From NCBI GenBank assembly GCA_964017185.1, contig OZ024880.1, positions 39,522,329 through 39,586,328 of the forward strand: a stretch of 64,000 nt of DNA, in the 5' to 3' direction. The notes under the pieces are model-generated. The model was not told the DNA's origin. It did no database searches and saw only the letters and a list, made by a program, of their open reading frames with translations. Of the stretch, positions 92 through 60,691 are shown in pieces. Position numbers and translations under genes: made by a program. The stretch is from Rugalucina vietnamica. Taxonomy: Eukaryota > Mollusca > Bivalvia > Lucinida > Lucinidae. The first letter of the stretch is position 1. Every line of letters begins with the position of its first letter.

Positions 92-310
92 TGAGCCTGT
101 GCATGAGAAAACCAGCAATTTGGGTTTCCGACCAACACAAACCAGGCTGTACACTGACAGCATAAATCTAGATGCTTGAAACTTTGGATACAGGTAGAAG
201 AGGAGTAGTACTATCCGTATGGCAAAAACAAAGGCGCTGATCAGCTGTGCAGTTACTGCACAGCTGATCTGTGTCTTTGTTTTGGCATATGCAAATCGTT
301 AGTTTTCTCT
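92..310 (-). mobile_element. Family A foldback MITE, copy A1
   Basis: Non-autonomous palindromic element, about 220 bp, of the most abundant family in this window. The left end is a diverged TGAGCC terminus followed by AGAAAACC. The right part has the family hairpin at about 222-285, whose arms match around GATCAGCTGTGCAG and CTGCACAGCTGATC. In this orientation the hairpin lies near the right end. The right terminus is eroded and merges into a SINE fragment. No coding capacity. Confidence 0.85.
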
Positions 311-408
311 GTGTCTTCCTCAAGGACACAACACAGCACATGTGTGGTTCAAACCCAGAACCTCTCGATTCAGAGTTTGCGGCTCTTCCAACTCGTCGCC
401 GCATTCAA
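310..408 (-). mobile_element. tRNA-derived SINE fragment (family S1)
   Basis: Read on the minus strand, this carries a degraded tRNA-like head with a B-box-like stretch (GGTTCTGGGTTTGAACC) followed by GTGTTGTGTCCTTG. The same order of blocks is much better preserved at 47906-48079. The 3' half is missing. It is a relic and not a functional tRNA gene. Confidence 0.7.
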
Positions 409-502
409 TCAATGTGGATGTTTGTAAAACCAAAGACATGCTTTTTTTGTGATGCAGAAAAAATCATTAGAGTTGGGAAATTATCAGAGCATCAGCTGAA
501 AA

Positions 503-738
503 TGAGCCGCCTCGTGGGAAAACCAACAATGTGGTTTCCGACCAGGTCTGACACAAACCGACCTGTACAGTCACAGAAAAGAGCTAGAAGCTTGAAATTT
601 CGTATTTAAGTAGAAGAGGAACTGTACTATCCGAGTAGTGAAAACAAAGACGCAGATCAGCTTCGCGGTTACCGCGAAGCTGATCTGCGTCTTTGTTTTC
701 GCATATGCAGATTGTTGGTTTTCCCATGAGGCGGCTCA
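503..738 (-). mobile_element. Family A foldback MITE, copy A2
   Basis: Complete copy with both termini. TGAGCCGCCTCGTGGG is at the left and its near-complement ends in GGCGGCTCA at the right. The hairpin core near 645-705 is AGCTTCGCGGTTACCGCGAAGCT with long flanking arms (AAACAAAGACGCAGATC and complement). Useful reference copy for the reverse orientation. Confidence 0.92.
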
Positions 739-883
739 AATGTGTTTCCAGAAGAATATTGTGACATTTCTCTCAAGTTGACGACGACCTAATTTAGAAC
801 GGAATCCAGAATCAATTTTCAGATTGATTACAGTTGCTGATGCTATGTCATGACTTCAACAGGTTTCCTGGGTTGACAATAAT

Positions 884-1118
884 TGAGCCGCCGCATGCGA
901 AAACCAACAATTTGCATAGGCGAAAACAAAGGTGCAGATCAGCTTCGCAGTAACTGCGAAGCTGATCAGCGCCTTTGTTTTCGCTACACGGATAGTACAA
1001 TTCCTCTTCTTTCTAAATCCAAGATTTCCCGCCTCTAACCATTTTCTGTGACTGCACAGGCTGGTTTGTGTAGGACCTGGTCGGAACCCAAATTGTTGGT
1101 TTTCTCATGCACAGGCTA
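884..1118 (+). mobile_element. Family A foldback MITE, copy A3
   Basis: Starts TGAGCCGCCGCATGCG. The hairpin lies near the left end (about 920-985) with the arm variant GCTTCGCAG/CTGCGAAGC. The right end, TCATGCACAGGCTA, is diverged. Its orientation is opposite to A1 and A2, which lie within the preceding 800 bp. Confidence 0.9.
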
Positions 1119-1201
1119 AATTATTTTCCAGCAATGGATTCTGTGAGGACAATAGTGTTAAAGCAGCTCTAACTAGTATAGAATTTTGGTTTAACAACCC
1201 A

Positions 1202-1362
1202 GTCAACAATTTTTCAGTCATATTTGGACAGAGTCACCTTTCCCTGTTATTAACCAGTACTTTGGGTGATCAAATGTGTTTTGCTCAAGGATACAAACCC
1301 AGCACCAGTAGGATTTGAACCTTCAACCTCTCCATTGGGAGTCTGACTCACTAGCCAACTTG
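1202..1362 (-). mobile_element. Degraded SINE of family S1
   Basis: Contains the S1 3' block AGTCAACAATTTTTCAGTCAT, a middle block GTTTTGCTCAAGGATACAA, and a tRNA-like head at the right (minus strand GGTTCAAATCC, B-box like). Block order matches 47906-48079. Many substitutions suggest an old insertion. Confidence 0.7.
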
Positions 1363-2033
1363 TAAAGATGTATATTTGCTGTACTACAGTGTACAGAGCG
1401 TTTTAAAGGCACCGCAATGTACTTCACACAGACATCAAATGCAACTTTGAAAGGCAATCATGCAATAGAACTCGCAAAATTATTCATATGAACATTCACA
1501 ATAGCTTGCCAAATACAGCAGTTCAGTCACACTTGCAAAGCCGCAGATATGCACATATTATTACTGATAATTACGATAATATTTGCATTTTTCTCTTGAT
1601 CTTTAGTCACACCCTAACACCAGACAGGCACCACCAGACATTGGGGCCAATTTTCTAATTATCTACATCAATGCACATTGCCCATGATAAAGAACAGCTG
1701 TAGAATATGATATAATTATGACTATTTCATATTTCATAATTTGCATAACACATTAGTGAGAAATTGAGAATATGACAATTTTCACAACTTTTGAGCTGGG
1801 CCATATTGCCATCAAAGGATAACAAGTTGTAAAGAGGTTTCTATGCTGGTGTTAAATTCAGGTAGTCTTATACCACTTTGTCACACTTTTACTCTGGTCA
1901 TAAAAATGTAGGAACTTCAGTATGACAAAGTATTACAGATAGACATCACAAAAAGAATTGTCTCAGTCTGTAGATACATGCCTATACTGGGCGTTAATTT
2001 ATCTTAGGTCTGTCAAGAAAAAGCAATACTATA
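1363..2033. other. AT-rich non-coding stretch
   Basis: No ORF of note and no repeat family recognised. Probably downstream intron of the Robo gene (3' of the Ig1 exon in gene orientation). Confidence 0.6.
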
Positions 2034-2287
2034 CGAGCCGCATCATGAGAAAAACAGATTTTGGTCTATGCGAAAACAAAGATGCAGATCAGCTGTGCTG
2101 TGCAGTTACTTTAACTGCACAGCTGATCAGCACCTTTGTTTTTGCTCCTCGGATAGTACTGTTACAATTCCTCTTCTACTTAAATCCAAAATTTCAAGAT
2201 TCTAGCTTTCTTCTGTGACTGTACAGGCCGACTTGTGTCAGACCTGGTCGGAAACCCTGAAGACTGCCTGTCTTGTGTCATGGCTCA
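2034..2287 (+). mobile_element. Family A foldback MITE, copy A4
   Basis: Left end is CGAGCCGCATCATGAG and right end is TGTGTCATGGCTCA. The hairpin (about 2085-2145) uses the AGCTGTGC/GCACAGCT variant, but the left arm has a small internal duplication (CTGTGCTGTGCAG) that breaks perfect pairing. Lies about 720 bp from the Robo exon. Confidence 0.87.
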
Positions 2288-2486
2288 TATAATCTAGATT
2301 TTATCAAGTTTTTCACAGTAAATGACCCATTTCATCCCAAAAAGATGAATATCATAATATTTATCATAACTGACAATCAAAATATTAACATGTTTTATAC
2401 CAACCATCTGATAACACTTGTCTCATCAAATACTGGGATCATGACCCAACAATTCTGGTTGCAGGTTACCAGTATTAAATTCAACT

Positions 2487-2808: not shown

Positions 2809-2998
2809 ACTGACAGATGCTTTATGAAAAAGACTGTCCCTAGAAATATTTTCACCACCACATTTCCATGAACAAAAATGTGCCACACAAGGATCAATAG
2901 CGCGTCAGCTTCTATACAAATCAGACCTGCTACCAATTGAAAACTACATGTATCATGTCCAATCATGTTTTTTGTGATTCATGAAAATCATGATAGTA

Positions 2999-3004
2999 GC
3001 TTAC
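2999..3004 (-). other. Splice donor of Robo Ig1 exon
   Basis: On the minus strand the exon ends ...ATAGCAG and the intron starts GTAAGC, a strong GT donor consensus. It leaves one base of a split codon in the exon (phase 1), as is typical for immunoglobulin-domain exons. Confidence 0.85.
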
Positions 3005-3439
3005 CTGCTATTTGTATGTTGGCTACTCTGCTGATGGCGGTACCATGTTTGTTTGTGGCGTTACAGTAATATTCTCCGATATCAGGATGATTATTCTTGG
3101 AGTGAATCACACGTAGGAAGAACAACTGTCCGTTATCCAGTAACATACGATGTGAGAGGGGGTCGTCACGGTTTGTCTCGACAGGGCGGCCATCTTTGTA
3201 CCAGGTTATCTTTGGTCGAGGATCACCCTCTGCCTTACAGTTCAAGGTCGCTGGGTTATTTTTAGCAAAGAAGTCGTCCTGAGGATGTTCTGTTATATGG
3301 GGAAATCCATACGGGAAACTGGGGTTACTGTCGTCTGAAATGTAGGGAAAACTGGGGTTACTGTCATCTGAGATGTAGGGGAAACTGCGGTTACCGTCAT
3401 CTGAAACGTAGGGGATTAACTGGGGTTTAATATCATCAG
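3005..3439 (-). CDS. robo: Roundabout (Robo) receptor, exon encoding Ig domain 1
   Basis: This exon encodes about 145 residues of a Roundabout guidance receptor, a single-pass membrane protein whose first Ig domain binds Slit. In the frame starting at 3449, the I-set Ig domain runs from about residue 50 to 148. Visible landmarks are HITEHPQD at the start, first Cys 71 in LNCKAEG, Trp 83 in ITWYKDG, then SHRMLLDNGQLFFLRVIH, and the D-x-G-x-Y-x-C motif ending in Cys 129. The VET-x-x-DDP-x-SHRMLL-x-x-G-x-LFFLR signature is characteristic of Robo Ig1 and separates it from other Ig receptors. The splice acceptor (TTTTAG) and donor (GTAAGC) give phase 1 at both ends and a length of 435 nt. Three tandem 11-residue units precede the Ig fold. 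No signal-peptide exon or Ig2 exon is visible, so this is one exon of a larger gene. The family call is strong; the paralogue is unknown. Confidence 0.92.
3312..3410 (-). repeat. Three 33-nt tandem units inside the Robo exon
   Basis: Three in-frame copies of an 11-residue unit: YVSDDGNRSFP, YISDDSNPSFP, YISDDSNPSFP, followed by a partial YGFP. The last two are identical in protein and nearly identical in DNA, pointing to recent duplication. The segment lies between the predicted exon start and the first Ig strand. Confidence 0.93.
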
Positions 3440-3450
3440 CTAAAATCAAG
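3440..3450 (-). other. Splice acceptor of Robo Ig1 exon
   Basis: Minus strand reads CTTGATTTTAG just before the coding frame, a short T-rich tract ending in AG. The resulting phase (1) matches the donor phase. A second AG about 17 nt inside the frame (CCCCAG) is a possible alternative acceptor. Confidence 0.7.
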
Positions 3451-3770: not shown

Positions 3771-3996
3771 ATTGGGAAAACCAACAATCTGCATAGGCGA
3801 AAACAAAGACGCAGATCAGCTTCGCGGTAACCGCGAAGCTGATCAGCGCCTTTGTTTTCGCTACTCGGATAGTACAACTCCTCTTCTACTTAACTCCAAA
3901 ATTTCAAGCTTCTAGCTCTTTTTCTGTGCTTGTGCAGGCCGGTTTGTGTCAGACCTGTTTGGAAACCACATTGTTGGTTTTCCCACGAGGCGGCTA
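3771..3996 (+). mobile_element. Family A foldback MITE, copy A5
   Basis: The left terminus has lost GAGCCGC and starts at TTGGGAAAACCAACAATC. The hairpin near 3800-3858 has the GCTTCGCGG/CCGCGAAGC variant, and the right end CCCACGAGGCGGCTA is intact. Confidence 0.9.
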
Positions 3997-4124
3997 AAAA
4001 TTATTATGATTGAGCTGCATCATGAGGAACCAGTGTATTGTAGTACATTTTTTCAAGAGGGGAAATAACTCCTCAGAGCTTGTTGTCACTGGACAATCTA
4101 TAGTGTCATTCACTACAAATAAAA

Positions 4125-4360
4125 GGAGCCACCTCGTTGGAAAACCAACAATGTGGTTTCCGACCAGGTCTGACATAAACCGGCCTGTTTAAGCACAGAA
4201 AAGAGCTAGAAGCTTGAAATTTCGGATTTAAGTAGAAGAGGAATTGTACTATCCGAATAGCGAAAACAAAGGCGCTGATCAGCTTCGCGGTAACCGCGAA
4301 GCTGATCTGCGCCTTTGTTTTCGCCTATGCAGATTGTTGTTTTTTCCATGAGGCGGCTCA
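4125..4360 (-). mobile_element. Family A foldback MITE, copy A6
   Basis: Left GGAGCCACCTCGTTGG, right CATGAGGCGGCTCA. The hairpin near 4260-4325 is an almost perfect palindrome centred on GCGGTAACCGC. Opposite orientation to A5, only 130 bp away. Confidence 0.92.
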
Positions 4361-4733
4361 AATGTCTCCTACCTGCAGAGTAAGAAAGTGGAAGTATTAA
4401 ACTCCAGGTGAACAAATTTAGTAAATATATCCATGTAAATCCACATTTTGAGCACATTTTGAATAATAAATAATCCAGGAATGAATGAACACACTCTTAT
4501 TCCATGTCATGTCACTTTAATTTCACAAGTTTCTGGTAAAGTCGCCACCTCATTATTTGCTGTGTAGGAATCTGTGAAGTTAGAGCACCTTGTTGTACCA
4601 ATCAGAGAAGTTTACAGCCCGCAAAGTCCTTGCTCATAATCTGAAAATATGAAAATTAAACTATAATTACAAGATATTGCATTTAATGTTTTATTTCTTA
4701 AGTGACAAGATGCTTAATGTTACAAACTTACAG

Positions 4734-5068: not shown

Positions 5069-6912
5069 ATGTATCAAAACATTATTCTAGGCACATGTTG
5101 AGTTATAAGCACAGAAAATAATACAAAAATTAAAGAGAACAGGAAAACTATAAATGATGATCAAATGTCAAAATAAAGCAAAAACTTTGGCAGTATTTAT
5201 GAGGGGGATTCTAGCTGCTGCTAAAAAGCCAAGATTTCAATCAAATATGTCAATAAGCAATTAGCGAATGCAAAATAGAGACAAGAAAAATGAGAACCCA
5301 GGGAATAAGCTGCTATGAGCTTTATTTATGTAATCCATCACAATTCTAGTTTCAGCCAAAAGTACAATCATTGCATATTCAGCTCTATGTCACTTGCCAA
5401 AATATTTTGCTGCAAAGAAAAAAAAATGCTCATTTTGCCTCGGCAGGAATTTAAAAACAGTTAATGCAAACAGTACAGAAAGTTTTCCGGCTTATGGTAA
5501 AACTTTTATCGTTACTGCATACAACAGGACAATAAAAAGTCTCTTAATGCCTTTTCTGTAATTGTTCGATGAAGACCCTTTCAAGACCCTTTTGCTGCCA
5601 TGAGACCTCCATAAATTCTGGTTTTATTGTAACTGAATCATCATTTAACTACATGAGCATTATTGCCAAAGTCTCCCCATAGAATCCAACAATGTCAAAG
5701 TTAAAATGGTTGTCAGACAACAAGACAGTAAAAGGATCTTATTTTTAATAGCATTTACAGTTCCTTGATGGTGTTTAGAAAGAACTGTCATGAAATTGAC
5801 ATAAAACTTGCTTTTAACTGATTGCATGCACAAAATACAATACTATTAATTATCTGGAACCTTCTGTTCTTGATGTTTTGGACTTTTATTAAAAATTAAA
5901 AAATCACTTTCTTGAATCAAAATGTTTCATAAAATGCTGAATAAGCTAAAATGGTAAGAAAAGAAAAGGCTGAAATTACAAGTATGACATGTTCAAAGTG
6001 GAAAGTTTCTGAATCATTCTTCAGATACTAATTTTGAATCAAAACAATCTTTGTTATTATAGGATCTAAGTGACAGAAAAAAAACTAAATCACAGAAAAA
6101 AATCTGAAAAATGACCTCCATCAGACTAGTACTCATGAGAAATCAAAGTTGTTACAACAATAACCACTCTAGTCATTAGTTCCGATATTTTCCCCAATTT
6201 CCACATCACAAGTAACCTGTCAAGCATGATTCTAGACAACCAGCAAATCCATTACCGAGAATTGTTCTGAGAACTCTATTCCGTAAGAGTACACAACAAC
6301 TTTGAAAATTTCCAATGACAACAGAGAATTAATCCTTTACAGGCGCTCATTTTGCTCTTTACTCAGTTACTGCAAAGCTATCCAGTTATCTCATGACGCG
6401 GCTCATATCATGGTCCTGGCATATTTCTCATTAGAGTTCAAATAGCTGTCAGACTCTTGTTGCTTAACAACCAGTCGCTAAACTTGTCCATTTCCGCTTG
6501 CAAGTGACTTTTCCCTTACACTAACAACAATCAAGTAACAGCAACCCTTAATTCAGTCTAATTTGATCTTTTTTCTCCATTCCTAAGTATCACAATCACG
6601 GCTTTAAGAGACTTTGACAGCCTGTCTGTGACAAAAACCTTGACACCGCTCCAGCCATTAAACAGATAATGACACCACGTAATTTGTTTCAATTCGATAT
6701 GTTTTCTCTCAGCCAGTGAAATCACATGATCTCTCTTCCGTCACATGACAATTTTATTTCGGGCATTATCCCTGAGTGATATTAGACACACAAACAGAGG
6801 AAACACTATCTAAAAGCCAGGGACTTGGTAAAATGGAAATGTCTTCAAGACTGTCACTTTTCGAACATTTAAAAACTTGAACAAGTGGCTGTACATATCT
6901 TTGAAACAAAAT
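5069..6912. other. AT-rich intronic stretch with one MITE terminus
   Basis: No gene or tandem array seen. A solitary family A terminus (CTCATGACGCGGCTCA, about 6390-6405) marks a decayed copy whose body is unrecognisable. Confidence 0.6.
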
Positions 6913-7042
6913 TTAGCCGCGACACGAGAAAACCAGTCTGGGGTTTCTGACAGAAGATGGCTAGAAGCTGGAAATTTTGGATTCATGGAAAAAAAGGAAT
7001 TGTACTAACCGTGTAGCAAAAACAAAGGCACTGATGAGCTCA
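6913..7042 (-). mobile_element. Truncated family A MITE, copy A8
   Basis: Left half only: TTAGCCGCGACACGAG, then GAAATTTTGGATT and AACAAAGGCACTGATGAGC, ending abruptly at GCTCA. The whole second hairpin arm is missing, as if the copy snapped at the hairpin. Confidence 0.8.
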
Positions 7043-7570
7043 AATAATAATAGCGATCATAATAAAAGATATTCTGTCAGTATAGAGGCTGGAGGGCCTG
7101 GTGAGATTCATAGCTTCAGCATCGGTGTACCACCTATTACACACATGCTAAATTACATGTAAAGCGTTGCATATAGCTTTTCTTGTCATTCCAAGATACC
7201 AATTTTGCCATTTTTGCTCTCTGCATGAGAATCGTTTGAGCATATAACTTAAAAAATTATTCAGGTTACCCCTGTGTTAGCCTCTTAAAGATAGAATGAA
7301 CTGTATGTCTAGACAGATTTCACTAAGGACAACTTGGCTACCTATGTGTACCTATTTCCAAAGTATCATTACTGTTCAAAAAATAATCTTCAGTTTTGTT
7401 ATTTTACTTAATTGCTATTTAAACCTCAGGCCACCAGGGTAAAATGAAATTACTTGTTTTATTGTATTTTGTAATTTTTCACGGACATTTGACTCAAGAT
7501 GAAGTCATTTTAAGGTGAATTTCCTCAAAATCTATACCAAAGTTTGAAAAAAAACAATAACCAATACTAA

Positions 7571-7790
7571 GGAGCCCCCACATGGGAAAACCAACAACCT
7601 GCATAGGTGAAAACAAAGGCGCAGATCAGCTTCGCAGTAACTGCGAAACTGATCAGTGCCTTGTTTTCGCTACACGGATAGTACAATGCCTCTACTTTCT
7701 AAATCCAAAATTTCCAGCCTCTAACCATCTTCTGGTTTGTCTTGGACCTGGTCGAGATCCAAATTGTTGGTTTTCTCATGCACAGGCTCA
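7571..7790 (+). mobile_element. Family A foldback MITE, copy A9
   Basis: Starts GGAGCCCCCACATGGG and ends TCATGCACAGGCTCA. The hairpin near 7612-7670 has the GCAGTAACTGC centre. The left arm GCTTCGCAG is matched by CTGCGAAAC, with one mispair. About 530 bp without recognisable features separates it from A8. Confidence 0.88.
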
Positions 7791-7892
7791 AAGATGTAGG
7801 TACTTCAGACAGATACCTTATTGTGATACCTTATTGTGGCACTCCCTTGACCCTCCTGTGTTACAGAATGCATTATAAATGATTTAATATTT

Positions 7893-8133
7893 CAGCCGTC
7901 TCGTGAGAAAACAAACAATGTGGCTTCTCAATAGGTCCGACACAAATCAGGCTACCCAGTCAAAGAAGATGGCGAGAGACTGGAAATTTTGGATTTAGAA
8001 GGTAGAGGAATTGTACTATCTGTGTAGCAAAAACTAAGGCGGTGATCAGATCAGCTTCGCGGTTTTACTGCGAAGCTGTGTGCGTCTTTGTTTACGCATA
8101 TGCAGATTGTTGGTTTTCTCATGAGGCGGATCA
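7893..8133 (-). mobile_element. Family A foldback MITE, copy A10
   Basis: Left CAGCCGTCTCGTGAG, right CTCATGAGGCGGATCA. The hairpin arm contains a short duplication (GATCAGATCAGC), and the loop is expanded by T residues. The second arm is shortened (GAAGCTGTGTGCG). Confidence 0.85.
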
Positions 8134-11100
8134 TATTTAATCAGCTCAAGTTTCTAACATGTGAACCTGCAAGTCACTGAGTTGGTAATTTGAGTTTTGC
8201 ATGATAGTAATATTTTGTATATTAAACGAGTTGTGAGTTGCGTGACAAAAACTTGACCCTGCTCATGAGCAACGGACAATGTATATAATACCAATTTCAA
8301 AAGAGAAAAGGGAATATCAATGAACTATATAATGATGTTTTCCCCCGCATTTTTCTATCCTGTTACATCAGCACTGTAACTGATCGGTCAAGGTACAATG
8401 ACATCTCATCCTCTCAGGATAGCAGCATGACGCTTTCCATTTTGTTTTATTCAATATTTTTTACACTATTTCACACTTAACAAGCTAGTGAAAATAGCAA
8501 ATAGAGGAATGCATTTCAATGTATCCATAATTGTATATAGTGTCAACTACTTATCAAAAATAACCACAAAATAGACATCTATAATGGTATTTATATCTAA
8601 ATGCCGCCAGATGACGAGGATTATCCTCCTAGAGGACACTGATCTGTCCATTTAGTAACAATTTTCCAATTTAATAATACAATTGGGGACATCCCTTCAC
8701 TAAACAACTTAATTTCATATATAATTCATGTTGACTACAGTCTTTGACAGATCTGCAGGAGCAGCACTTGCTCGAAATGAACTGCCCTGTAATCAGCTGT
8801 TTTTACAAGTTTCATCTTTATATAAAACAAGGAACTCAGTAAACTGCATCAGTGACTAAAAAATTACACAATGGTTTCAAATGACAACAAAATAATACTA
8901 AACTATGATGAAACTTCATCTGTATAAAACAAATGTTTTGGGTTGAAAAAACATCTTATTCCTACAGATAATTAATTTTGACATTTAAAGTAAGACTGTT
9001 TTTCATGCCCCAGGTTGCATGTATTAAATGCAGTACAACATACTGTATGTACCATACTCAAATTCATACTACATCCATTTACAATCTACTACAATTCTAT
9101 GATGCAGAAATTCCTCAAATTATGGAAGTAACACCCCAATAACAGAAGCATCTGTGTTGTGCAGAAAAAGTAATTGTTTTCTTGCATAACAAAAATACCT
9201 AAAAGTTATGGTATTGAGCAAGATGTACCGATGATTTGCAGACTGCCAGTGCATTTGTTGTCTAAGAAACAAAAGCACCTAACTGTACTCCCAGCTGCAA
9301 CCGGGGCTGCAACATTTTGTAATATCCCCGGCTTTCAAAAATAAAATGGTCACCTGCCAAATAATTGTTTGTAGCTTTGACATTTGAGAACAGGAAAAAC
9401 ATGACTCTACATTCCAAACAAATTGTAACAAATTCACCAGAAATATGATACCATGAACAAATGTGAATTTTCCACCACTATGGTCATAAACCATTTTGAT
9501 ATGATCAATTTCAGTAACACATTTTTCAGACATTGTTTTAATGTGTGTAACAGTTTAATGGCCTATAATCTGTTGATCAATTTGTTATAAGATCATATCT
9601 ACAGGATCTTGAACCATTGGGCATGTCATCTACAAGATCTTGGACCACTGGGCATGTCATGCCAGGATCTTATCACATTAAATAGGGATAAAATATCTTC
9701 TTGTCTTAAATGGCTTCAGTCTTTCTTGACCTAAGGAAATGATAAGAAATTGACACTTTCATACTAATAAGACTACACTGGGGTGAGAAGTATTGAGTAC
9801 ATGTATAAAGTTTTAAGCCAAAAATGATTATAAACTCTAGTCCTCTCTGAATTACCATTTGATTGTAAAACTAAGTTTAAACTTAAATCAAGCAGCACTT
9901 TAAATAATCACCTAAAATGTCTTTTATCGCCTGCTCAGCAATTTCGTTCAAGAAAAATCTAAATTAATTTTGTCACATCTATTAGTTCATAAAATGCTTG
10001 GAGGAATCTTTTTTTTTTCTCTCTGTTGCATGTTGGCATTTTACAGGATGCTATTCTCCTTTTGATTTCCAGTCTAACTAGTTGAACAATCTCTCAAACC
10101 TTGTATTTTGGAAGTTTTATTAAAGATGATGTATTGATATCTCCTTTACTACAAACTAAACCTCATTACCATTTTTATGTACTCTCAATGTTGGGAATGT
10201 TGGGAAAATCTTCTGTTTTATGATTTATATATCTTCTACTGGGTCTTTCTGACTTTTTATTTCAATCATAAAGAAGCATACTGACCTTATAAAAGCTCAA
10301 ATCATGATCAATTAACACAAAAAATCTCAAATAAACCTTAATTACTACCAGAAGAAATTCTTCAATGAATTTTATGGCCAATATATAGAACCCAAAGATG
10401 ATGTGGTAGTTTTAAATAAATGCATTCCCTGCTACCAAAAGAAACTGCACAAAGATCCAACACTATGTAAGACCATCAGTCCCCTTTTTGAGATAACACT
10501 GGGTTACCTCCCTTACACCAAATCCCTAAGCATTGAATAGCCTTTTTCAAAAACCAAATTTTACTTCAACCTTGAAAATGCTCAAAGGTTAAAGCTTTTC
10601 TCAGTCCATTTTCAGTCCTGTCCATTAACAACCATTAGTTTTGTGTTAATTAATAATCCATGATCAACAATATTATCTTTGCCTGGAAAGTCACTTTGTA
10701 CTTTTTCTTTGAACTTTTATGGTGCCCAGTAAATAACTCCAGCCTCAAAATCAATTACTGACTGACAATTACATGTATATAGAATATTTCCATGAATGTT
10801 CCCTCACTCAGATCTTTGCCTAGAATTTACTCTTCACAACAGATACTGATCAGACAACATGTAATTTTCATCTTTTAAAATAAATACACATGTACATGTA
10901 TTACCTATCAGAATATTTACTCCTGTCCTTGTGGAAATTCTGAACTGGTTATACAGAAGGACACAATGTCCCGAAGGACCTGAAATTACTGAAAATTATA
11001 GCACTGATCTAAACAATTTTATCTTGGGTCTAAGTACACTAAATCAATGGCCGGCTATTATGTATCATTTCAAATAATCCATAACAACAATGAATTTCTT

Positions 11101-13022: not shown

Positions 13023-13303
13023 TCATCATAAAAACATGTCCGTGTAATATATACCCCCTTGAACCCCACATTTATATAGAAAAACTGGGGTATGCAGGGG
13101 TATACCTTTTTTTCTTATTTTTGCTCCAAAACATAGATTGTGGGTACTCGTTAGAACCGCCTCGGCGAGGCAGTTCTAACGTGTACCCACAATCTATGTT
13201 TTGAGTAAAAATAAGAAAAATATTGAAAAATTTCTACTGAAAATTTTCATTTTTTTACAACTTTAAAAATCTCTGTATATTGCATGGGCATGATTTCGTA
13301 ATG
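13023..13303 (+). mobile_element. Family B foldback MITE, copy B1
   Basis: About 280 bp. Left end CATCATAAAAACATGTCCGT, right end GGGCATGATTTCGTAATG, which are imperfect inverted repeats. The centre is a long palindrome at about 13106-13222. Its arms contain CATAGATTGTGGGTAC and complement around AGAACCGCCTCGGCGAGGC. A second AT-rich arm (CTTATTTTTGCTC) extends the stem. Confidence 0.9.
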
Positions 13304-14211
13304 TAAAATGAATTTATTTATCAGCACATGTAATATCTCCATTCAAAAGACATCACAGGGTAACTGACATTTCAAAATGTCTCATGTGGTTTGTTCTGAT
13401 AGCTAGATTTATGCAAATAAAATTGCAACAAAGATGCAAAACTGCAACAAAAATGCCAAACGAAAACATAAAATGTCCAAGGACAAACTTCATGCTCAGC
13501 AAGATCATGACACTGTCCTATCTAAACTGATGGTCTAAAGATGCTCTAAGCTTTAAATTGAAAGACATTTGAAAGCTTTTAAATATTCATGTTGTATAAA
13601 GTTTATCTAGATTTAATGCAATACAGATTATCTTGTCATTCAATACAAGTCTAAGGTCTTCTCTAAAATCCTACTTGGCATATATAAAATGCACAGCAAA
13701 CAAAATTTTGTGATTATTTTGATTCAATCTTAATTCAATCATTTACAGACATGCATTTTGTATTTTGGATGTGTGTTTTATGAGGGCCTGCATTTTGTTA
13801 TCTCTGTTAAGTAGCTGATAGGCAGATTTCAAGATGGATAAATGCTATTTAACACAGTTTTATCTAAATATTGAATGATTTTATCATAAACATTGTTTAA
13901 CAGGCAGACCTGTTTAACAGGCAGACTTCTTGTGCATACAGACACAACAGTTGTGGATTTAAATCCTTTTCATTCTAAATGTTTGTATAAACTCAACAGT
14001 TTGGTCACCATTTTTATCAAACTTCAAAAACATTGCATCTATTGATGGTTTTATCATGATAAGTTTTTAAAATTCAGATTATTGGATTAAAGATAAACCT
14101 GTCTTTAAAGATGGATTAGTCTTTGTTTAACCATCAACAAGGCTATACTGTATAAACTCTACAATCTGATAGTAAATATTTAATTCAAAACTAAATGTTT
14201 GAATTTATAGA
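13304..14211. other. AT-rich non-coding stretch
   Basis: Nothing recognised except a 16-bp doublet (TGTTTAACAGGCAGAC) near 13895-13925. Confidence 0.55.
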
Positions 14212-14448
14212 TGTGCCGTTGCGTGACAAAACCAACAATCTGGGTTTCCGACCAGGTCCGACACAAACCGGCCTGTACAGTCATAGAAGCAGGCTAGAGA
14301 CTTGAAATTTCGGATTTATAAAGAAGAGGGATTGTACTACCCATGTAGCAAAAAAAAAGGCACTGATCAGCTTCACGGTAGCCGCGAAGCTGGTCTGCGC
14401 CTTTGTTTTTGCATATGCAAATTGTTGGTTTTCTCACGTGGTGGCTCA
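14212..14448 (-). mobile_element. Family A foldback MITE, copy A11
   Basis: Left TGTGCCGTTGCGTGAC, right CTCACGTGGTGGCTCA. The hairpin near 14355-14410 reads AGCTTCACGGTAGCCGCGAAGCT, with one unpaired arm difference (CACGG versus CCGCG). Confidence 0.9.
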
Positions 14449-15061
14449 GATAATCTTGACATAAATCATTCATTGAGTTCTTATAATTCATGGACAGGCT
14501 AAATGAATGTTCCAAACTAAAAACAATGAAAGAGGCACAATAAATTGTCAACAAGACACTTAGACTATTAAAGTCCAATTCGCATCTGCAAAAAATACAC
14601 ACTGTAAATATACTCCGGTGTGTATTTATACTCCGGTGTGCAAATCAACCTGAGAGTAAATTTAAATTGCGTTCGCATGGGTTTTATCGCCAGGAGTATT
14701 TTTGTAGGTAAATTTATCATTTCTGGATTAAAACCTGTTCATTTAAGTTTTCTGTATTTGCAAAACAAGAAGAGGCTGCTTCAAGGTGTTCATGTAGACT
14801 TTGGCAGCAGAGGGGAATCATGTAATGGTCAGGCATAACCTTAGCAGTTATACAGTTCCCTTTTTTCATCCTTTCACAAGGAATTACTGTTAAAATGCCC
14901 CAAAAATCCTAACCAAGAATGATGAAGAAATAGTGTGGCTGTTTGCACTCCATATGATCTAAAATGTTATGAATGGCAATAAACTCTTATTTAGCAACAA
15001 TGTCCACAGTTTCAGCAACTGTCATATAAGCAGAATATTGACTTGAAATAAAAGGGTGCAG

Positions 15062-15230
15062 GACATTTCGTCTAAAACCATTTCGTCTAAAAGCCATTTC
15101 GTCTATAGGACATTTCGTCTAAAAGCCATTTCGTCTAAAGGACATTTCGTCTAAAGGACATTTCGTCTAATGGACATTTCGTCTAAAGAACATTTCGTCT
15201 AATGGACAATTTGTCTAAAAAATCTAGTGG
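15062..15230 (+). repeat. Minisatellite of GGACATTTCGTCTAAA units, left arm
   Basis: Ten or more 14-18 bp units built on ACATTTCGTCTAA run head to tail, ending in a small palindrome at about 15228-15296 (GTGCGACATTTGGTCTAAAA and complement). This is the left arm of an inverted pair; the right arm is 15630-15853. Confidence 0.93.
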
Positions 15231-15629: not shown

Positions 15630-15853
15630 TAGACGAGTTTTAGACGAATTTTAGACGAATTTAGACATTTTTAGACGAATTTTAGACGAAATGTCGTATT
15701 CGACGAAATGTCTATTAGACGAAATGTCAATTAGACGAAATGTCCTTTAGACGAAATGTCATTTAGACCAAATGTCTTTTAGACGAAATGTCCTTTAGAC
15801 GAAATGTCCTTTAGACGAAATGGCTTTTAGACGAAATGGTTTTAGACGAAATG
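15630..15853 (-). repeat. Minisatellite of TTTAGACGAAATGTCC units, right arm
   Basis: Inverted counterpart of the left array. The outer three units (with ACCATTTCGTC and AGCCATTTCGTC when read on minus) match the outer units of the left arm in the same order. So the two arrays are true terminal inverted arms of one foldback element of about 790 bp nested in the 14572-16105 element. The inner units are shorter (TTTTAGACGAA). Confidence 0.9.
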
Positions 15854-16192
15854 TCATGGATCCGAAATAAAAATACTCATGGGTAAATTTTACTTTGCAT
15901 TCGCATGGGACATAATAGTAAATTTACATGTGTGTATTTGTAAAAATAAAATTTGCATCTGGTCAGACCCAGGAGTAAATTTACCCATATGTAAATATAC
16001 TCTGGTGTGTATTTGCGTTCGCATGCGCCATTTACTTACCCCGAGTAAAATTTGCACACCGGAGTATATTTACACGTGTGTATTTTTGGCGCATGCGAAT
16101 TGGACTTAACTCAACATTTGTAGCATGACCCAAATACCAGCACTAACGCAAGCAGTTTACTGGAATTCCACTTTGTTGGCAAAATTCAAGTC

Positions 16193-17066: not shown

Positions 17067-17602
17067 TGCCCTTGTCTGGTAACCTCCTACCCACCTATGC
17101 AGGTTCTGCTTTCAACTTCTAGAGTGACACTGAGTGCTGTATCTCTTGACACTGTGGTGACCCGCTGTTACCCAGACCTACCATCAGGAAAACATATCCA
17201 TGAAATGTATACCCCCTCATACCCCACTTTTATATAGCAAAAATGGGGTATGCAGGGGTATACCTATTTTTCTAAATTTTGCTCCAAAACATAGATTGTG
17301 GGTACTCATTAGAACCGCCTCACCGAGGCGGTTCTAACGTGTACCCACAATCTATGTTTTGAGCAAAAATAAGAAAAATATAAAAAAAATTCCGACAAAA
17401 TTTTCAATTTTTACAGCTGAAAAAATTCTCTGTATATTGCATGGGCAAGTTTTCGTAATGACTAATGTCCCTCGCCTTGGAACCTCCTACCCACCTATGC
17501 AGTTTCTGCTTTCAACTTCCACACAGTGACACTGAGAGCTGAACATCAGTTGCTGTATCTCATGACACTGTGGTGACCCACTGTAACCTAGACCTACTAA
17601 TG
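17067..17602. repeat. Duplicated ~120-bp segment flanking a MITE
   Basis: ACCTCCTACCCACCTATGCAG ... GACACTGTGGTGACCC occurs at about 17081-17182 and again at 17485-17602. Family B copy B2 sits exactly between them. Either the segment duplicated and a MITE landed at the joint, or an exchange copied the flank. Confidence 0.88.
17182..17460 (+). mobile_element. Family B foldback MITE, copy B2
   Basis: Left CATCAGGAAAACATATCC, right GGGCAAGTTTTCGTAATG. The palindrome near 17263-17375 is centred on GCCTCACCGAGGC and includes GTATACCC and its complement. Confidence 0.92.
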
Positions 17603-41612: not shown

Positions 41613-41814
41613 TTTCGTAGAAAATGTCATTTATATTTTAATGCTCAGTGAGTTTTTGGAATGAGACATGAACCATGTGGAAAACAGATTTTGGTAATTA
41701 TTTATGTAAATCCAAAAGAAACAATTAGAAAGCAATTAATGAAGCATTTCCAGAAATTCCAGCATGTGCAGCCAGGAACAGTTGCTTCATGCATAATATT
41801 GACACAACAATCAA

Positions 41815-42044: not shown

Positions 42045-42097
42045 ATTAAGGTGTTGCAACAATCTCATTAATTTCTGTCAGGAATTCCTTTGGCATA

Positions 42098-42321
42098 TGA
42101 GCCTCGACCCAGAAAACCGTCCAACTAGGTCCGACATAAACCGGTCTGTGCAGTCAGAGAAGAGAGCTAGGATCTTGAAATTTTGGGTATAGGTAAAGGA
42201 GGAATTGTCCCATCCGTGTAGCGAAAACAAAGGTGCTGATCAGCTTCGCATTTACTGCGAAGCTGATCTGCGTCTTTGTTTTCACATAGGCAAAAATCCG
42301 GTTTTCTCATGACGTGGCTCA
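42098..42321 (-). mobile_element. Family A foldback MITE, copy A17
   Basis: Left TGAGCCTCGACCCAG, right CTCATGACGTGGCTCA. Hairpin near 42225-42288 with arms AGCTTCGCATTTACTGCGAAGCT. Same orientation as A16, 53 bp apart. Confidence 0.9.
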
Positions 42322-42904
42322 TATCATCCAAAAGCAAAGTTCTACTTGATCCTGTCCTCTAAATATTGGTATGAAAGAACCCCCTGACTTTCATGCTAAT
42401 CCCTACCCTGTGCCTTTGATCTCTGTGAAGTGATATAGTTCTTTTTCATGCACAAAAGACATGCATCTCCAATTCTTCAAATTAGGGATGATCCCATACT
42501 TACAACAAATCTGCAACAAATTGTTGGTATTCAGACTCATTAGCAAGAAAAGATATTTCATAATTTTCAAATGTCAGAATAAGTCTGAGAGTAACAAATT
42601 GATGCAAACATTCTGACAGCTGCACACAAATATATTTTGGATCCATCATATATTTTAGACAGATTCTTAGGCAAACTCAGCAATTCCCCAAAGAACTTTC
42701 TGGCAGTTTTACTAAAACGAACATTACAAAGACTTTATTACACTCAGGTCATATAAAATGACATATGAGGTTCACATGACTGTATTTACTTAAGGAATGA
42801 TCATGATAATGGATGTAGTGGATGTAGTGGATGTACCGCAAGATGCAAACATGTAAGCATTTGGTGTCCATCCAAGAGCTACCTGATGGGCGGTTTGCCT
42901 TTAT

Positions 42905-46869: not shown

Positions 46870-47313
46870 TAATGAGTATTTTGGACATCATGCCTTTAAT
46901 CACCAAATGCATCATCAATTCTTCAGAGTTAACAAGTACATTGCCATGGTATTGTCAGATCTTTAATTCCACCAAGTGCATAATTTTCATGACTTGACAT
47001 TATCACCACCCTTTTGTTACAGAAAAATAGTTTCATTTCACCCTATCAGTCTGTCTCACTTCTTTGATGCACTTGAAGAACCCTGTCAAGACTTCTAGCA
47101 TTTAATTAGTTCAGGTCCTTTGATTTGATATTTGGATTGTAATCATGTTCCTAAAATTGAACCAATTAGATAGATTGAGTTGAAATTATTTGAACATTTG
47201 CTGAAATGATGAAAAAATTCTCTTGAACCTGATGAATTTACCTCTTAAAGAAAAATTGAAGAGATTAGAGAGAGATTAATGCAGAATGCAGACAGGAGAT
47301 TCAAGAAATAAAA
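46870..47313. other. AT-rich non-coding stretch
   Basis: I see no gene, repeat family or structured element here. Confidence 0.5.
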
Positions 47314-47610
47314 TGAGCTGCGCCATGAGGAAACCAACAATGTGGTTTCCGAACAGGTTCAACACAAACTGAGCTGTACAAGCACAGAAGATGGCTATAG
47401 GCTGGAAATTTTGAATTTAGAAAGTAGAGAAATTGTACTGAACAGAACAGAACAGAACATACCTTTATTAACTCTCAGATTGTACAATACAACATATGAG
47501 ATAATGTACACTGATCATGGACAAAAAGACAATACTAAAGGTGTAGTGAAAACAAAGGTGCTGATCAGCCTTTGTTTTCACAAATGCCAAATGTTTGTTT
47601 GTTCAGCTCA
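47314..47610 (-). mobile_element. Family A MITE split by a LINE tail, copy A18
   Basis: Left TGAGCTGCGCCATGAGG, right TTTGTTTGTTCAGCTCA. The body is interrupted after AATTGTACT by a 93-bp insertion and resumes at GTGTAGTGAAAACAAAGG. The hairpin is reduced to GGTGCTGATCAGCC, so its tip has been lost. Confidence 0.85.
47440..47532 (-). mobile_element. 5'-truncated LINE 3' tail with (GTTCT)n end
   Basis: On the minus strand the insert reads from TGTCTTTTTGTCCATGATCA to TTAATAAAGGTATGTTCTG and ends in about four GTTCT units. Tandem pentamer tails like this are typical of CR1/L2-type LINE 3' ends. Target duplication TACT flanks it (47436-47439 and 47533-47536). It postdates the MITE. Confidence 0.7.
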
Positions 47611-50620: not shown

Positions 50621-50623
50621 GCA

Positions 50624-51775: not shown

Positions 51776-51804
51776 TGGCAGCTGACTGAGATCAATCATA
51801 CAAA

Positions 51805-52041
51805 TGAGCCGCGCCATGAGAAAAACGGATTTTTGCCTATGCGAAAACAAAGGCGCAGATCAGCTTCGCAGTAACTGTGAAGCTGATCAGCGCCTTTGTT
51901 TTCGCTACATGGATAGTACAACTCCTCCTCTACTTATATCCAAAATTTCAAGATTCTAGCTTTCTTCTGAGAATGTACAGGCCAGTTTGTGTCAGACCAG
52001 GTCGAAAACCCCGAAGACCGGTTTTCTCGCGTCGCGGCTCA
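51805..52041 (+). mobile_element. Family A foldback MITE, copy A19
   Basis: Left TGAGCCGCGCCATGAG with the ACGGATTTTTGCC subtype; right CCGGTTTTCTCGCGTCGCGGCTCA type. Hairpin near 51843-51907 centred on GCAGTAACTGTGAAGC, with one G-U-type mispair. Confidence 0.92.
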
Positions 52042-52231
52042 AATCATAATTCAAATACAAATTACATTACAAGAATATTGCAGTTCCACTGTGATAATGC
52101 ATTAATCACTATACTGCAAATATGGATTGGGATAGGAAGATGGAAGACTCCAAGATGGAACTCAACTGATGATGAGTATTAATCATTTCTGTTATAGCAA
52201 CAGTATGCATGTGTGGAACAGCATGAGTTTA

Positions 52232-52511
52232 CATCAGGAAAACATGTCCGTGTAATGTATACCCCCTTTTACCCCACTTTTACATAGCAATGCAGGGGTA
52301 TACATATTTTTCTTGTTTTTGCTCCAAAACATAGATTGTGGGTGCTCGTTAGAACCGCCTCGGCAAGGCGGTTCTAACGTGTACCCACAATCTATCTTTT
52401 GAGCAAAAATAAGAAAAATATCAAAAATTTTCAGATGAAAATTTTCTGAAAATTTTAAATTTTTACAACACAAGAAAAATATGTATATTACATGGGCATG
52501 TTTTCGTAATG
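52232..52511 (+). mobile_element. Family B foldback MITE, copy B7
   Basis: Left CATCAGGAAAACATGTCCGT, right GGGCATGTTTTCGTAATG. Palindrome near 52299-52418 with centre GAACCGCCTCGGCAAGGCGG. The GGGGTATAC inverted block is kept, but the segment before it is shorter than in B1. Confidence 0.93.
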
Positions 52512-54290: not shown

Positions 54291-55438
54291 ATCAATAATA
54301 CAAAATATGGTCTGCATCATCAATTTAGTGTCTGCAAGTTAGAAACTTTCTTTGAAATGCCACCTGCTGAATATTTTTCAAGCTTTCAACAAGCTGCCAT
54401 TTGTCAACATTAAATTGTTTTTGTTGCATTTCTGACATACCTTGCTGCAGATTCTTACAGTGCCTTTCACTGCTAATCATTGGCAAGCAAAGCTATAAAA
54501 TTTAACAGCCAATTAACAAACAGAAAGTTGAATATCCATCATCATTTGTTCTTGCTGCAAATGGCTAATTTTTATCATAGAAATGAAAACACTGGCATAA
54601 ATGCCTTAAACATTTTTAAATGGTACAAATTACAAAACATGATCAAAGAAGGCAATGTAAATCAATTTTCTATGGTGGTGTATCAAAAACTGAAAACCTT
54701 TACATTTTAACAACTTAAAAGGCTTTTTACCAAATTATTTATTACAAAAAAGTAGTATAATCATAAACAAATTAAATATTATCACAAAAAGAAAACCATC
54801 AAAGCATTTTCATTATGACATTAATTTAAAAATTAAAAAATGCAATCTAGATAATCATAGGTAAAAATGTACATGAAATTTTGAATAGCAACTAACAGCC
54901 CTTTATTATATGCAATATTTTAGTCTTCCCACCCCCGCTGTTCATGAACCTCAAACCCACATTTTTTTTATCTTTTTTTTTTTGTTTTCTTTCTTTCTTT
55001 GAAAATCTTGAAGCCAGGAATGATTTTTATTCACAATGGTGAAAATTCCCCAAATCTTCATGTCAAAAAGTCAATTTTTCAAAACAAATATTATCCCCAT
55101 TGATCTCAGCTGGCCTGTTCTGTTGTGGATCAGTTGGGCTTACTTGGTATTTCTCTAACCTTATTAACCTCCCAGTTTCTCAGCCTATCATATGGTATCA
55201 AGTTGTCCCCCTATCGGTCAAACCCTGAGGGGCGTCCTAACCTCTTTGTACATTATGACAGTGAAGGATTACTCTACCACATGGTCCAAGATATCTGATA
55301 CATCAATACAACAAAAACTTGACAGAAATTACTGTAGCTACTGCATATATATTGGAAATCAAAACCACTTTTTAGTTTTCACTAATACTTTGGTTTCTAA
55401 ATATGACAAGAAGTCAAACTTTCCATCATGCTGATATA
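54291..55438. other. AT-rich non-coding stretch
   Basis: No gene recognised. T-rich tract at 54962-55002. Confidence 0.5.
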
Positions 55439-55675
55439 TGAGCCGCGACGCGAGAAAACCGGTCTTTGGGGTTTCCGACCAGGTCTGACACAAATCGGCC
55501 TGTACAGTCACAGAAGCAGGCTAGAAGCTTGAAATTTCGGATTTAAGAAGAAGAGAAATTGTACTATCCGTGTAGCGAAAACAAAGGCGCTGATCAGCTT
55601 CGCGGTTACCGCGAAGCTGATCTGCGTCTTTGTTTTCGCCTATGCAGATTGTTGGTTTTCCCATGAGGCTGCTCA
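55439..55675 (-). mobile_element. Family A foldback MITE with two TIR subtypes, copy A20
   Basis: The left terminus is the TGAGCCGCGACGCGAG / CCGGTCTTTGGGG subtype. The right terminus is the AGATTGTTGGTTTTCCC / CATGAGG subtype. The two ends therefore come from different subfamilies. The hairpin near 55575-55638 is intact (GCGGTTACCGC centre). Confidence 0.93.
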
Positions 55676-56454
55676 TATCTATATAGACTACAATATTGAG
55701 ACAAAGCAGGACCATCTCCCCCTCTAAATCCTCCACTATGACTTCAGGCCTTTAATGGGTTATTCGGATGATATTTCCCATAACTATATATGTATCAGGT
55801 ACAATTGTCATTTCAAGTTTCTGGTCAGCAGAAAATATGACAGGCTCAGCAATTCTTAGAAATTTTAAGACCATTTATAGAAATAAAATTCTCAGCAATT
55901 TCAGACAAAATGATTTCTCCTTATTTCACACCCTACTGATTGAAACTGATGAGCCCGCAAAGTGAAGAAATATGCCTAACCGTATACATTTATGAAGTTG
56001 CAACTAGCTCTATCCATGCCTTTGGCTATCTTCTCAGAATTCTTGTGGCCATTTCTTATGTCTAATTATAGTTTCTGTATCCGCTATATGTAGTAAATTT
56101 GTGGTTAGTGAGGGCTAGCTGAGGCGTCTAGATTTGCTGGGCTTAGTCGAGCACTGTGACTCGATAGACAGGCTTACTCCTGTCCAGCCTGAAATAACCA
56201 GTTTTCCAAATGATAATGACAATCAGCAAATTTTCTCTATTTTCTCCAGTCTTACAACAAGCCATTTAAGAAGTGCTGATTTTCTTTCATTTCACCCTCT
56301 GCTGAAGCCAACAGTTTTTGATTAGTGAGAATCCATAATTTCATCCTTACAGTAAATAGCAGCAGTATTGCCCTCGACAATCAATCAAGTCTGTCTCATT
56401 TATAACCAGGACACTGATGCTTCCAATCTGAGAATAGGAGCCTGTTTAAACACA
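55676..56454. other. Non-coding stretch
   Basis: I see no gene, repeat family or structured element here. Confidence 0.5.
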
Positions 56455-58330: not shown

Positions 58331-58552
58331 GTCCCCCTGTACATTAGATGGTAGTCTCAAGTGGTACTAGAATCAAAGGGCATGAGGTACTGACAGGTCT
58401 TAAAGACACAATTAATTGGGGGATATGTCCTAAGGCAACACATGTGGTTATGTGAGGTCATTTTGGACAGCAGAGCAAGGTGACAAAAGTGGTCCCCCTG
58501 TACATTATATTGCAGTCTCAAGTGGTACTAGAATCAAAGGGTGTGAGGGACA
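58331..58552. repeat. Direct duplication, ~161-bp spacing
   Basis: GTCCCCCTGTACATTA...AGTCTCAAGTGGTACTAGAATCAAAGGG occurs at 58331-58381 and again at 58492-58541. The intervening 110 bp is not clearly duplicated. Confidence 0.9.
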
Positions 58553-58705
58553 GTTCATTGGGAAGCACTGTTGATGTGGTAAGGTGACCACGACCAGGGT
58601 CAGCTTGGAGGCAGAATATGGTAAATATAGGGGATACTATGGACTCATTCCATTGCAGATGCCTGACTATAAGAGTACTTACTAATTGCAATTTAATATA
58701 TTTAC

Positions 58706-58982
58706 CATTACGAAAACATTCCCATGCAATAAACAGAGATTTTTGAGCTTTAAAAATTGAAAACTTTTCAGCTGAAAAATTTTGTTATTTTTCTTATTTT
58801 TCCTCAAAACATAGATTGTGGGTACTCGTTAGAACCGCCTTGGTGAGGTGTCTAATGAGTACCCACAATCTATGTTTTGGAGCAAAAATAAGAAAAATAG
58901 GTATACCCCTGCATACCCCAGTTTTGCTATATAAGAGTGGGGTTTAAGGGGGTACACAATTCACGGACATGTTTTCCTGATG
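58706..58982 (-). mobile_element. Family B foldback MITE, copy B8
   Basis: The only reversed family B copy: left CATTACGAAAACATTCCC, right GGACATGTTTTCCTGATG. The palindrome near 58785-58905 is damaged in one arm (GGTGAGGTGTCTAATGAG). Confidence 0.92.
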
Positions 58983-59421
58983 CATAGTGAAAACAGTAAA
59001 AGCCTAAGTTGTGTGTTCCAGGTTTTAGGAATCTTAGTGCACTAAGTGGCATTTTCTTTTGCCAGAATTTTTCAGCTGATGAATTCTCATCAATTATTTT
59101 GTTTTCAGATGATGTGCCAGAAAATTAACTTTTTTTTTCTTTTCCAAATTCTTTGTCTAATTATGACTTATTATCACTCTATTATTTTTACATTTTCAAA
59201 AATGAACAACTAGCTGTATTTTAAACGTTATTCAGTTGCCATTGGTTCTAGCTAATGTGGTTACATTTCTTTTGAGTTTGGTACACCTCTGAAAATAGTT
59301 CATAGTGCTCTGTGAATTTAATAATATCAGACTCTGTTTTAAAGAGTTCTACAAATCTGCAAGCCTTGCATTTTCAATTTTAACTCATTTAAGCCTCAGG
59401 CGTCCCTTTTGTGGGACATAG
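58983..59421. other. AT-rich non-coding stretch
   Basis: I see no gene, repeat family or structured element here. Confidence 0.5.
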
Positions 59422-59487
59422 GCAAACAGAATAGCCCCAGATGTGACGCCGCAGAACGCGGCGTCCCATCTGGGGCTATTCTATTTG
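59422..59487. repeat. GC-rich perfect-arm hairpin
   Basis: Arms GCAAACAGAATAGCCCCAGA and TCTGGGGCTATTCTATTTGC enclose GACGCCGCAGAACGCGGCGTC, itself a hairpin with a 5-nt loop. Probably the tip of an old MITE; termini not identified. Confidence 0.85.
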
Positions 59488-60219
59488 CACAGAGAAATTT
59501 CATTGAAAAATGAGATAAAAAATAAAAATCACTCCTAACGCCCCTAAAAATGAAAGTGGACTCATCCAATTGATAGGAATGGGAAAATCCATTCGTCAAA
59601 TGTGGGTTAATTTAACATTAATTGGGCAAAAGCACATGTTCCATGTCAGATATAATTTTCAAATTTATTTATTGGCTGAAATGTTTGTCTGGCAGTTCAA
59701 TGCTGTTATAGTAAATTTTATCTTGAAATAGTTGGACACCCACCAGTATTTAACAAGTACATGTTTTATCACTAATTTCATACAACTGAGAAAATTATGA
59801 AACAGACACATAGAATATACAATGTTCAAAATTGAAATGAAATGAAATTCTAATGATACTGGGAAACTCATTCAATCAAAGAACACTCTATCTAAATTTG
59901 TTTATACTCCACCAGTTAAATCAATTTGTTTATGGTCAACTTGATTTTTGAAAATAAATTGAAAACATTTTATGCCAACTTCAATCCTTAGATTACCATA
60001 AATTTTTCATGTATCATTTATTCGTAACAGAACATATGCCTAAAATGGCATTTCATCCAAAGAGAACACTTTTAAAAGAACTTAAAAGCTCTGAATTTCT
60101 AAATAACAGAAAAGCAACAAATCATCCTTTTTTTCAATCATTAAAATGCTCCCATTTACATTCAAATTCATAACTATCTTCAATAAAAGAAAAATAAGCT
60201 TTAAAGCCATTCCTATATA
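59488..60219. other. AT-rich non-coding stretch
   Basis: I see no gene, repeat family or structured element here. Confidence 0.5.
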
Positions 60220-60691
60220 TGAGCCGCGTCATGAAAAAAAACAGGATTTTGCCCATCCAAAAACATAGACACAGATCAGCTGTGCAGTCACTGCACAGCT
60301 GATCAGCACCTTTGTTTTCGCTACTTGGATAGTACAATAGTACAATTCCAATTTCAATATTCTCACTTTCTTCTGAGACTGTACAGGCCAGTTTGTGTCA
60401 GACCTGGCCTCGAGGTTATAAAACTTTTTTCATGCTCAGCTCAGCTGAGACTAAAATTTATCCTGCTCAAAAATGTTAAAATGCCAACAATTGTTGGCAT
60501 TTTAACATTTATTAGCAGGATAAATTACAGGCTTTGGAGTTCTAAACCTTCAATTTCAATATATTTTGGCTATTTCAGTACTTATGAGCAATTGAAATTT
60601 CAAGCTCAGCTGAGTTGAGCATGAAAAAAGTTTTATAACCTCGGGGCCAGGTCGGAAACCCCGAAGACCGATTTTCTCACGTCGTGGCTCA
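60220..60691 (+). mobile_element. Family A MITE hosting a nested MITE, copy A21
   Basis: Left TGAGCCGCGTCATGAA, right CTCACGTCGTGGCTCA. Hairpin near 60260-60320 with AGCTGTGCAGTCACTGCACAGCT. The body is interrupted inside GACCTGG/GGTCGG by family D (60409-60643). Confidence 0.92.
60409..60643. mobile_element. Nested palindromic MITE, family D
   Basis: Inverted ends CGAGGTTATAAAACTTTTTT then CATGCTCAGCTCAGCTGAG, and the complement ending TTTTATAACCTCG. A second internal palindrome (about 60454-60527, centred on CCAACAATTGTTGG) has arms of about 35 bp. Inserted into A21, hence younger. Single copy in this window. Confidence 0.9.

Follow-up and report, generated by a model that had tools for sequence, protein, structure and literature searches.

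Paired arm variants in the hairpin of a lucinid transposon family: three amplified haplotypes with probable exchange between copies and rare arm templating

A short non-autonomous DNA transposon, here called family A, recurs throughout a 64,000-nt stretch of the genome of the lucinid bivalve Rugalucina vietnamica (GenBank assembly GCA_964017185.1, contig OZ024880.1, positions 39,522,329 to 39,586,328 of the forward strand; hereafter the window) and carries an internal hairpin whose two arms vary in pairs. Three inherited hairpin haplotypes amplified by transposition, together with exchange between copies and rare templating of one arm on the other, probably explain this pattern. A preliminary description had noted that the arms of about 20 copies change together and had taken this to imply compensation. 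Pairing of the arms does exceed chance, but the co-variation resides in three haplotypes with few separate paired changes. Compensation does not follow from it, since the variants are mostly these haplotypes multiplied by transposition.

Family A and its hairpin haplotypes

Miniature inverted-repeat transposable elements (MITEs) are short, possess terminal inverted repeats (TIRs) and a target site duplication, and reach very high copy numbers. Family A shares all of these features and is a MITE of known kind. Its most frequent length, among 34 of 92 copies with both ends and both flanks recognised, is 234 bp; each of the other 58 had an end or flank that escaped recognition. In the alignment the TIRs of the family terminate in GAGCC ... 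GGCTC. The target site duplication of 4 bp, mostly AWWT, is exact in 20 of the 34 copies, with agreement in 28 to 30 of them at each position. What sets family A apart from MITEs in general is an internal 65-nt hairpin separate from the TIRs.

A profile search with nhmmer gave 22 matches in the window (Table 1) and 60, fragments counted, in 27 stretches of 10 kb (270 kb) placed at random in contigs 1 to 12, within the first 39 Mb of each. The density of about 0.22 matches per kb, fragments included, extrapolates to some 240,000 matches in the 1.09-Gb, 47-contig genome. The palindrome pattern of one haplotype, GG, has 32,554 matches genome-wide; such genome-wide pattern counts for repeats may be lower bounds. 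The 92 copies combine window and genome loci, and 50 have gapless stems, 10 of these from loci selected by an exact GG palindrome.

The hairpin of intact copies is a near-palindrome with 32 pairs flanking one centre base, which folds by itself at about −40 kcal/mol (z −12.8 to −14.5). Three inner-stem haplotypes, diagnosed by pairs 26, 27 and 30, cover 46 of the 50 gapless stems (27 GG, 10 AG, 9 TG; 4 other). Each is paired at its variable positions, and their DNA folding energies are near equal (−40.6, −39.4 and −39.3 kcal/mol). Most of the arm pairs reported in the preliminary description are real: GCTTCGCGG/CCGCGAAGC is present in the copies at 497, 4004, 4117, 21152 and 55431, GCTTCGCAG/CTGCGAAGC in that at 1128, and CTGTGCAG/CTGCACAG in those at 86, 41809 and 60407. 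The CTTTGTG/CCCAAAG pair at 40587, by contrast, is not a clean paired variant and belongs to a decayed copy that is mismatched at pair 29. One-sided changes in or beside the inner stem, which the preliminary description had passed over, occur in at least 5 of the 14 gapless stems of the window (14201, 42090, 52051, 2294 and 41809).

The shuffled-copy comparison that had been proposed was carried out by swapping arms between 46 gapless copies from the window and the genome samples (2000 shuffles). The inner nine pairs are Watson-Crick in 94.7% of cases against 81.2% after shuffling (SD 1.6, maximum 88.4%); without the loci selected by the exact GG palindrome, the values are 93.3% and 79.1% (40 copies). 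Chance pairing of the arms is ruled out by these comparisons.

In the 50 gapless stems, 40 of the 47 two-sided standard-pair cells lie at pairs 26, 27 and 30, pairs 26 and 27 are altered jointly in 10 of 11 copies, and no fourth combination of pairs 26/27 and 30 was found. The stem is not perfectly paired. A T:T mismatch occupies pair 17 in 48 of these stems, and at pair 13 a G faces a right-arm C or T in 46 (G/T in 19). Pair 17 in 66 sampled copies is T/T in 61, A/T in 4 and a gap in 1. Median divergence of the body from the class consensus is 0.100 for GG, 0.134 for AG and 0.156 for TG. The haplotypes likely appeared in the order TG, AG, GG and were multiplied by transposition, and the paired changes (26 with 27; 30) would each have been fixed about once in propagating lineages.

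One diverged relic stands apart from the three haplotypes. The inner stem of L029 8360-8479, CTGTATGGT/ACCATACAG, departs from TG by three adjoining paired changes, at pairs 28, 29 and 30 (the last now G-C), and has A at the centre, possibly as the result of a single template-switch event. No second instance was found at up to three substitutions in 358 kb.

Probable exchange between copies and arm templating

A tree of 49 copies was built from columns outside the stem (the flank tree). On it AG requires 10 changes (shuffled mean 9.4) and TG 8 (8.5), while GG is clustered, with 9 changes against a shuffled 16.4; scored by position, pair 30 needs 10 changes and pairs 26/27 need 8. The haplotypes had been expected to form clades, which for AG and TG they do not. 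According to the preliminary description, shared ancestry would suffice if the paired variants traced to a few master copies on the tree and all later changes were unpaired. The small number of haplotypes agrees with that outcome, the scatter of AG and TG does not.

The TIRs were typed in 51 copies, giving left-right combinations of 1-1 in 22, 2-2 in 21, 3-3 in 2 and mixed types in 6. Left and right TIRs thus come in matched types (45 of 51), and paired variation in family A extends beyond the hairpin. Left TIR types 2 and 3 carry all three haplotypes and left type 1 carries GG and AG; no TG was found with right type 3 among the copies seen (3 GG, 2 AG). The spread of haplotypes across TIR types, together with the scatter of AG and TG on the flank tree, suggests that exchange between copies is also needed. 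It is favoured over recurrence because only three combinations are common. Exchange may well have moved the hairpin as one block among TIR types. From these sequence distributions we infer a block of variants, each with about one origin, which has been reshuffled relative to the remainder of the element.

A similar process is described for the foldback-like element Galileo (PMC4168063). Its structural variants are ascribed there to template switching, abortive gap repair and ectopic exchange, and the ectopic exchange between copies resembles that proposed for family A. Galileo differs in its long TIRs and is placed in the P superfamily; the likeness concerns the proposed process only. Literature searches for hairpin compensation, template switching or chimeric copies in MITEs gave nothing on point among the matches listed.

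Templating of one arm on the other is suggested by the fate of the mismatch at pair 17. Among the matches listed for the left arm (first 100 of 526), 60 distinct places have A in 40 cases, C in 17 and G in 3; among those listed for the right arm (279 in all), 61 places have A in 40, C in 15 and G in 6. These tallies were read by eye from listings, in which the places lie in the first contigs only and the left-arm A places, being palindromes, appear twice. As in quasi-palindromes, changes at the mismatch favour the pairing base, and under equal transversion rates the A:G ratios of 40:3 and 40:6 have p = 3e-9 (left) and 3e-7 (right). The base that re-forms the pair is thus preferred on either arm, in two different contexts, as would be the case if one arm were sometimes copied from the other. 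The evidence for such rare arm templating, akin to quasi-palindrome template switching, is good but incomplete. Of the two causes put forward in the preliminary description, templating therefore gains support in a rare form from the excess of T-to-A over T-to-G; for selection on the fold the evidence points neither way.

The pairing-corrected copies extrapolate to about 210 for the left arm and 110 for the right. This would place arm-templated correction in about 1% of GG stems, where the baseline is the 32,554 GG palindrome matches and not the T:T stems. Neighbouring mismatches may have been corrected in one tract in window 497-745, the one clear copy, in which pairs 13 and 17 are both paired and the left arm matches the right-arm sequence there. 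On the flank tree two corrected copies are separated: that at window 497 falls within a clade supported at 95/87, and L025 1582 falls outside it.

The centre base was considered as a neutral control for the mutation spectrum. Among the matches listed (100 of 2062) it is A in 27, C in 61 and G in 12, a weaker A excess (p 0.02), and A versus G differs between pair 17 and the centre (p 0.008). It is a poor control: its 2062 variants compare with an extrapolated total at pair 17 of roughly 315 for the left arm and 170 for the right, which suggests that centre variants were probably amplified in subfamilies.

Template-switch compensatory mutations are known from RNA genes (Monttinen and Loytynoja 2022; PMC8794818). 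That study gives multi-site paired changes and loop inversion as their footprints. The family A hairpin resembles those genes in that one arm, copied from the other, would keep the stem paired or make it so; it differs in residing in a DNA transposon with thousands of copies, in which a standing mismatch serves as test site. Loop inversion, the other footprint named there, is weakly indicated in family A by centre A 27 versus G 12 among the matches listed. Quasi-palindrome mutations in yeast and E. coli (PMC3820800, PMC7202029) are likewise reported to extend arm identity in imperfect inverted repeats. Those cases are experimental, whereas that of family A is deduced from the base spectrum at one mismatch.

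Judging from the mutation bias, low-rate rewriting of one arm from the other may occur as in quasi-palindrome template switching, and a template switch in a master copy would most simply account for the original paired changes. More tentatively, and with clearly less confidence than for the account as a whole, the hairpin might be a natural assay of arm-templated repair whose TG, AG and GG masters were born by single-step switches near the tip. With a standing mismatch in a hairpin that exists in tens of thousands of copies, family A offers a ready test site, at which T-to-A versus T-to-G changes at pair 17 would gauge the germ-line frequency of arm-from-arm copying.

Selection, compensation and points against the favoured account

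Selection on the folded hairpin, as DNA cruciform or RNA, would have let well-paired elements amplify better, so that paired masters replaced unpaired ones. We regard this as rather unlikely; it is compatible with the favoured explanation. In a variability comparison of 56 copies (L001-L008 omitted), the outer stem has fewer non-major states per cell than the body (0.060 vs 0.133) and more near-invariant columns (39/50 vs 48/101; Fisher p 0.0004), as selection would have it, and the three haplotypes fold about equally well. Singleton states per cell differ little, at 0.012 in the outer stem, 0.0143 in the body and 0.0122 and 0.0136 in the TIRs. The lower outer-stem variation would follow from selection on the hairpin in amplifying lineages, but also from spread of the stem as a block by exchange. 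The T:T mismatch at pair 17 (48/50) and the G/T at pair 13 (19/50) show that perfect pairing is not required, and the window has 0 Rfam matches at gathering score. Paired variation is no proof of selection, because haplotypes, block exchange and CpG change in both arms mimic compensation; paired variation in transposon hairpins alone is no evidence for structural selection.

Recurrent compensation, by which a post-insertion change in one arm commonly drew a matching change in the other, is very improbable. The preliminary description had called for a count of paired against unpaired stem changes. In 66 copies, each measured against its own haplotype, 158 departing cells are confined to one arm (75 left, 83 right) and 18 affect both. 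After insertion, family A copies alter mostly one arm at a time. The two-sided changes, of which 13 are Watson-Crick, still exceed the shuffle mean of 7.1 (SD 2.7), and partner CpG doubles number 8 of 408 against 31 of 2418 for non-partner ones in the same copies; both speak for compensation. Genome-wide, 82 partner doubles likewise compare with 107 non-partner doubles spanning two configurations, but single-arm states prevail, one change at a given CpG of the GG stem occurring at 1341 places. If changes were simply independent, some 14 partner doubles would be expected; age differences among copies therefore inflate doubles of every kind. How far partner doubles exceed the non-partner control depends on the rate of the second CpG site: about 1.5-fold when both sites change alike, 1.8-fold when the second is faster by a factor of 1.2, and not at all when it reaches 0.65 of the rate of the first. 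CpG change, moreover, makes up part of the two-sided changes, and in both arms it yields a Watson-Crick pair unaided. Strong recurrent compensation is unlikely.

A reading of the paired variants as unrelated hairpins or as chance matches has a negligible probability: copy 40587 is indeed only partly paired, but the stems align, share common outer arms and occupy the same place in the same element, no stem match (E 0.01) was found outside family A copies in 358 kb, and the idea was rejected on these alignments and this search.

Several observations weigh against the account of haplotypes, exchange and rare templating. There is a single instance of the fourth combination at pairs 26/27 and 30, in the relic L029 8360-8479 (readable arms 69 left and 67 right of 92), which also holds three adjoining paired changes. 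Neither AG nor TG is a clade on the flank tree, on which 7 of 46 inner branches are well supported, and master copies alone fail without exchange. Exchange is deduced from the distribution of haplotypes rather than from breakpoints, and the TIR types were assigned by likeness to three references picked by eye. Two-sided changes remain above the shuffle mean (18 vs 7.1) after the haplotypes are subtracted. As to templating, the centre base also favours T-to-A over T-to-G (27:12 among the matches listed), and part of the bias at pair 17 may be unrelated to pairing. C at pair 17 creates a CpG, lowering the C count; some of the listed pair-17 places are close neighbours and may represent duplicates; and the T-to-A bias might represent old polymorphism rather than recurrent correction.

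Repeats and an open reading frame in the window

The family A copies are compiled in Table 1 together with the six occurrences of a second foldback, MITE-like family, which forms a long palindrome around AAAACATAGATTGTGGGTACTCGTTAGAACCGCCTCG and likewise has some mismatches between its arms.

Table 1. Copies of family A and of a second foldback family in the window.
Position	Strand	Feature	Hairpin	Basis
86-309	+	family A, TG haplotype	222-286	nhmmer, inverted repeat, stem alignment
497-745	+	family A, GG haplotype; 30-nt arms 100% complementary	640-700	
878-1128	-	family A, AG haplotype	920-984	nhmmer, inverted repeat, stem
2028-2294	-	family A, TG haplotype, pair 30 changed one-sidedly	2070-2145	
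3771-4004	-	family A, GG haplotype	3797-3861	
4117-4367	+	family A, GG haplotype, A not T at centre	4260-4324	
6906-7040	+	family A fragment, stem cut		nhmmer, stem alignment
7566-7799	-	family A, AG inner stem, decayed		nhmmer, stem alignment
7882-8139	+	family A, mixed inner stem (left GG, right AG), A at left pair 17		
14201-14454	+	family A, GG-type, one-sided CpG change in left inner arm		
20900-21152	-	family A, GG haplotype	20943-21007	
38309-38529	+	family A, left arm deleted		nhmmer, stem alignment
40587-40812	+	family A, decayed inner stem (CTTTGTG/CCCAAAG)	40708-40768	
40851-41084	-	family A, hairpin tip deleted		nhmmer, stem alignment
41809-42049	+	family A, TG haplotype	41944-42008	
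42090-42326	+	family A, AG-type with one-sided change	42223-42283	
47309-47439	+	family A fragment, left part; may join 47533-47609 as one copy		
47533-47609	+	family A fragment, right part		nhmmer
51799-52051	-	family A, AG haplotype, one-sided CpG change	51841-51905	
55431-55682	+	family A, GG haplotype	55575-55639	
60215-60407	-	family A, TG haplotype	60260-60318	
60595-60699	-	family A fragment, left part only		nhmmer
13110-13220		second foldback family		inverted repeat search
17276-17370		second foldback family		inverted repeat search
23252-23367		second foldback family		inverted repeat search
37343-37433		second foldback family		inverted repeat search
52304-52421		second foldback family		inverted repeat search
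58788-58896		second foldback family		inverted repeat search

Two tandem arrays of 16-bp units, at 15060-15219 (AGGACATTTCGTCTAA) and 15680-15855 (TTTTAGACGAAATGTC), lie about 460 bp apart in opposite orientation, the unit of the second being a near reverse complement of that of the first. Two further arrays, at 28897-30439 and 34116-35033, have similar-looking units of 316 and 315 bp in 4.9 and 2.9 copies. An open reading frame at 2988-3449 on the minus strand has an immunoglobulin I-set domain and contains a 33-bp tandem repeat at 3316-3427.

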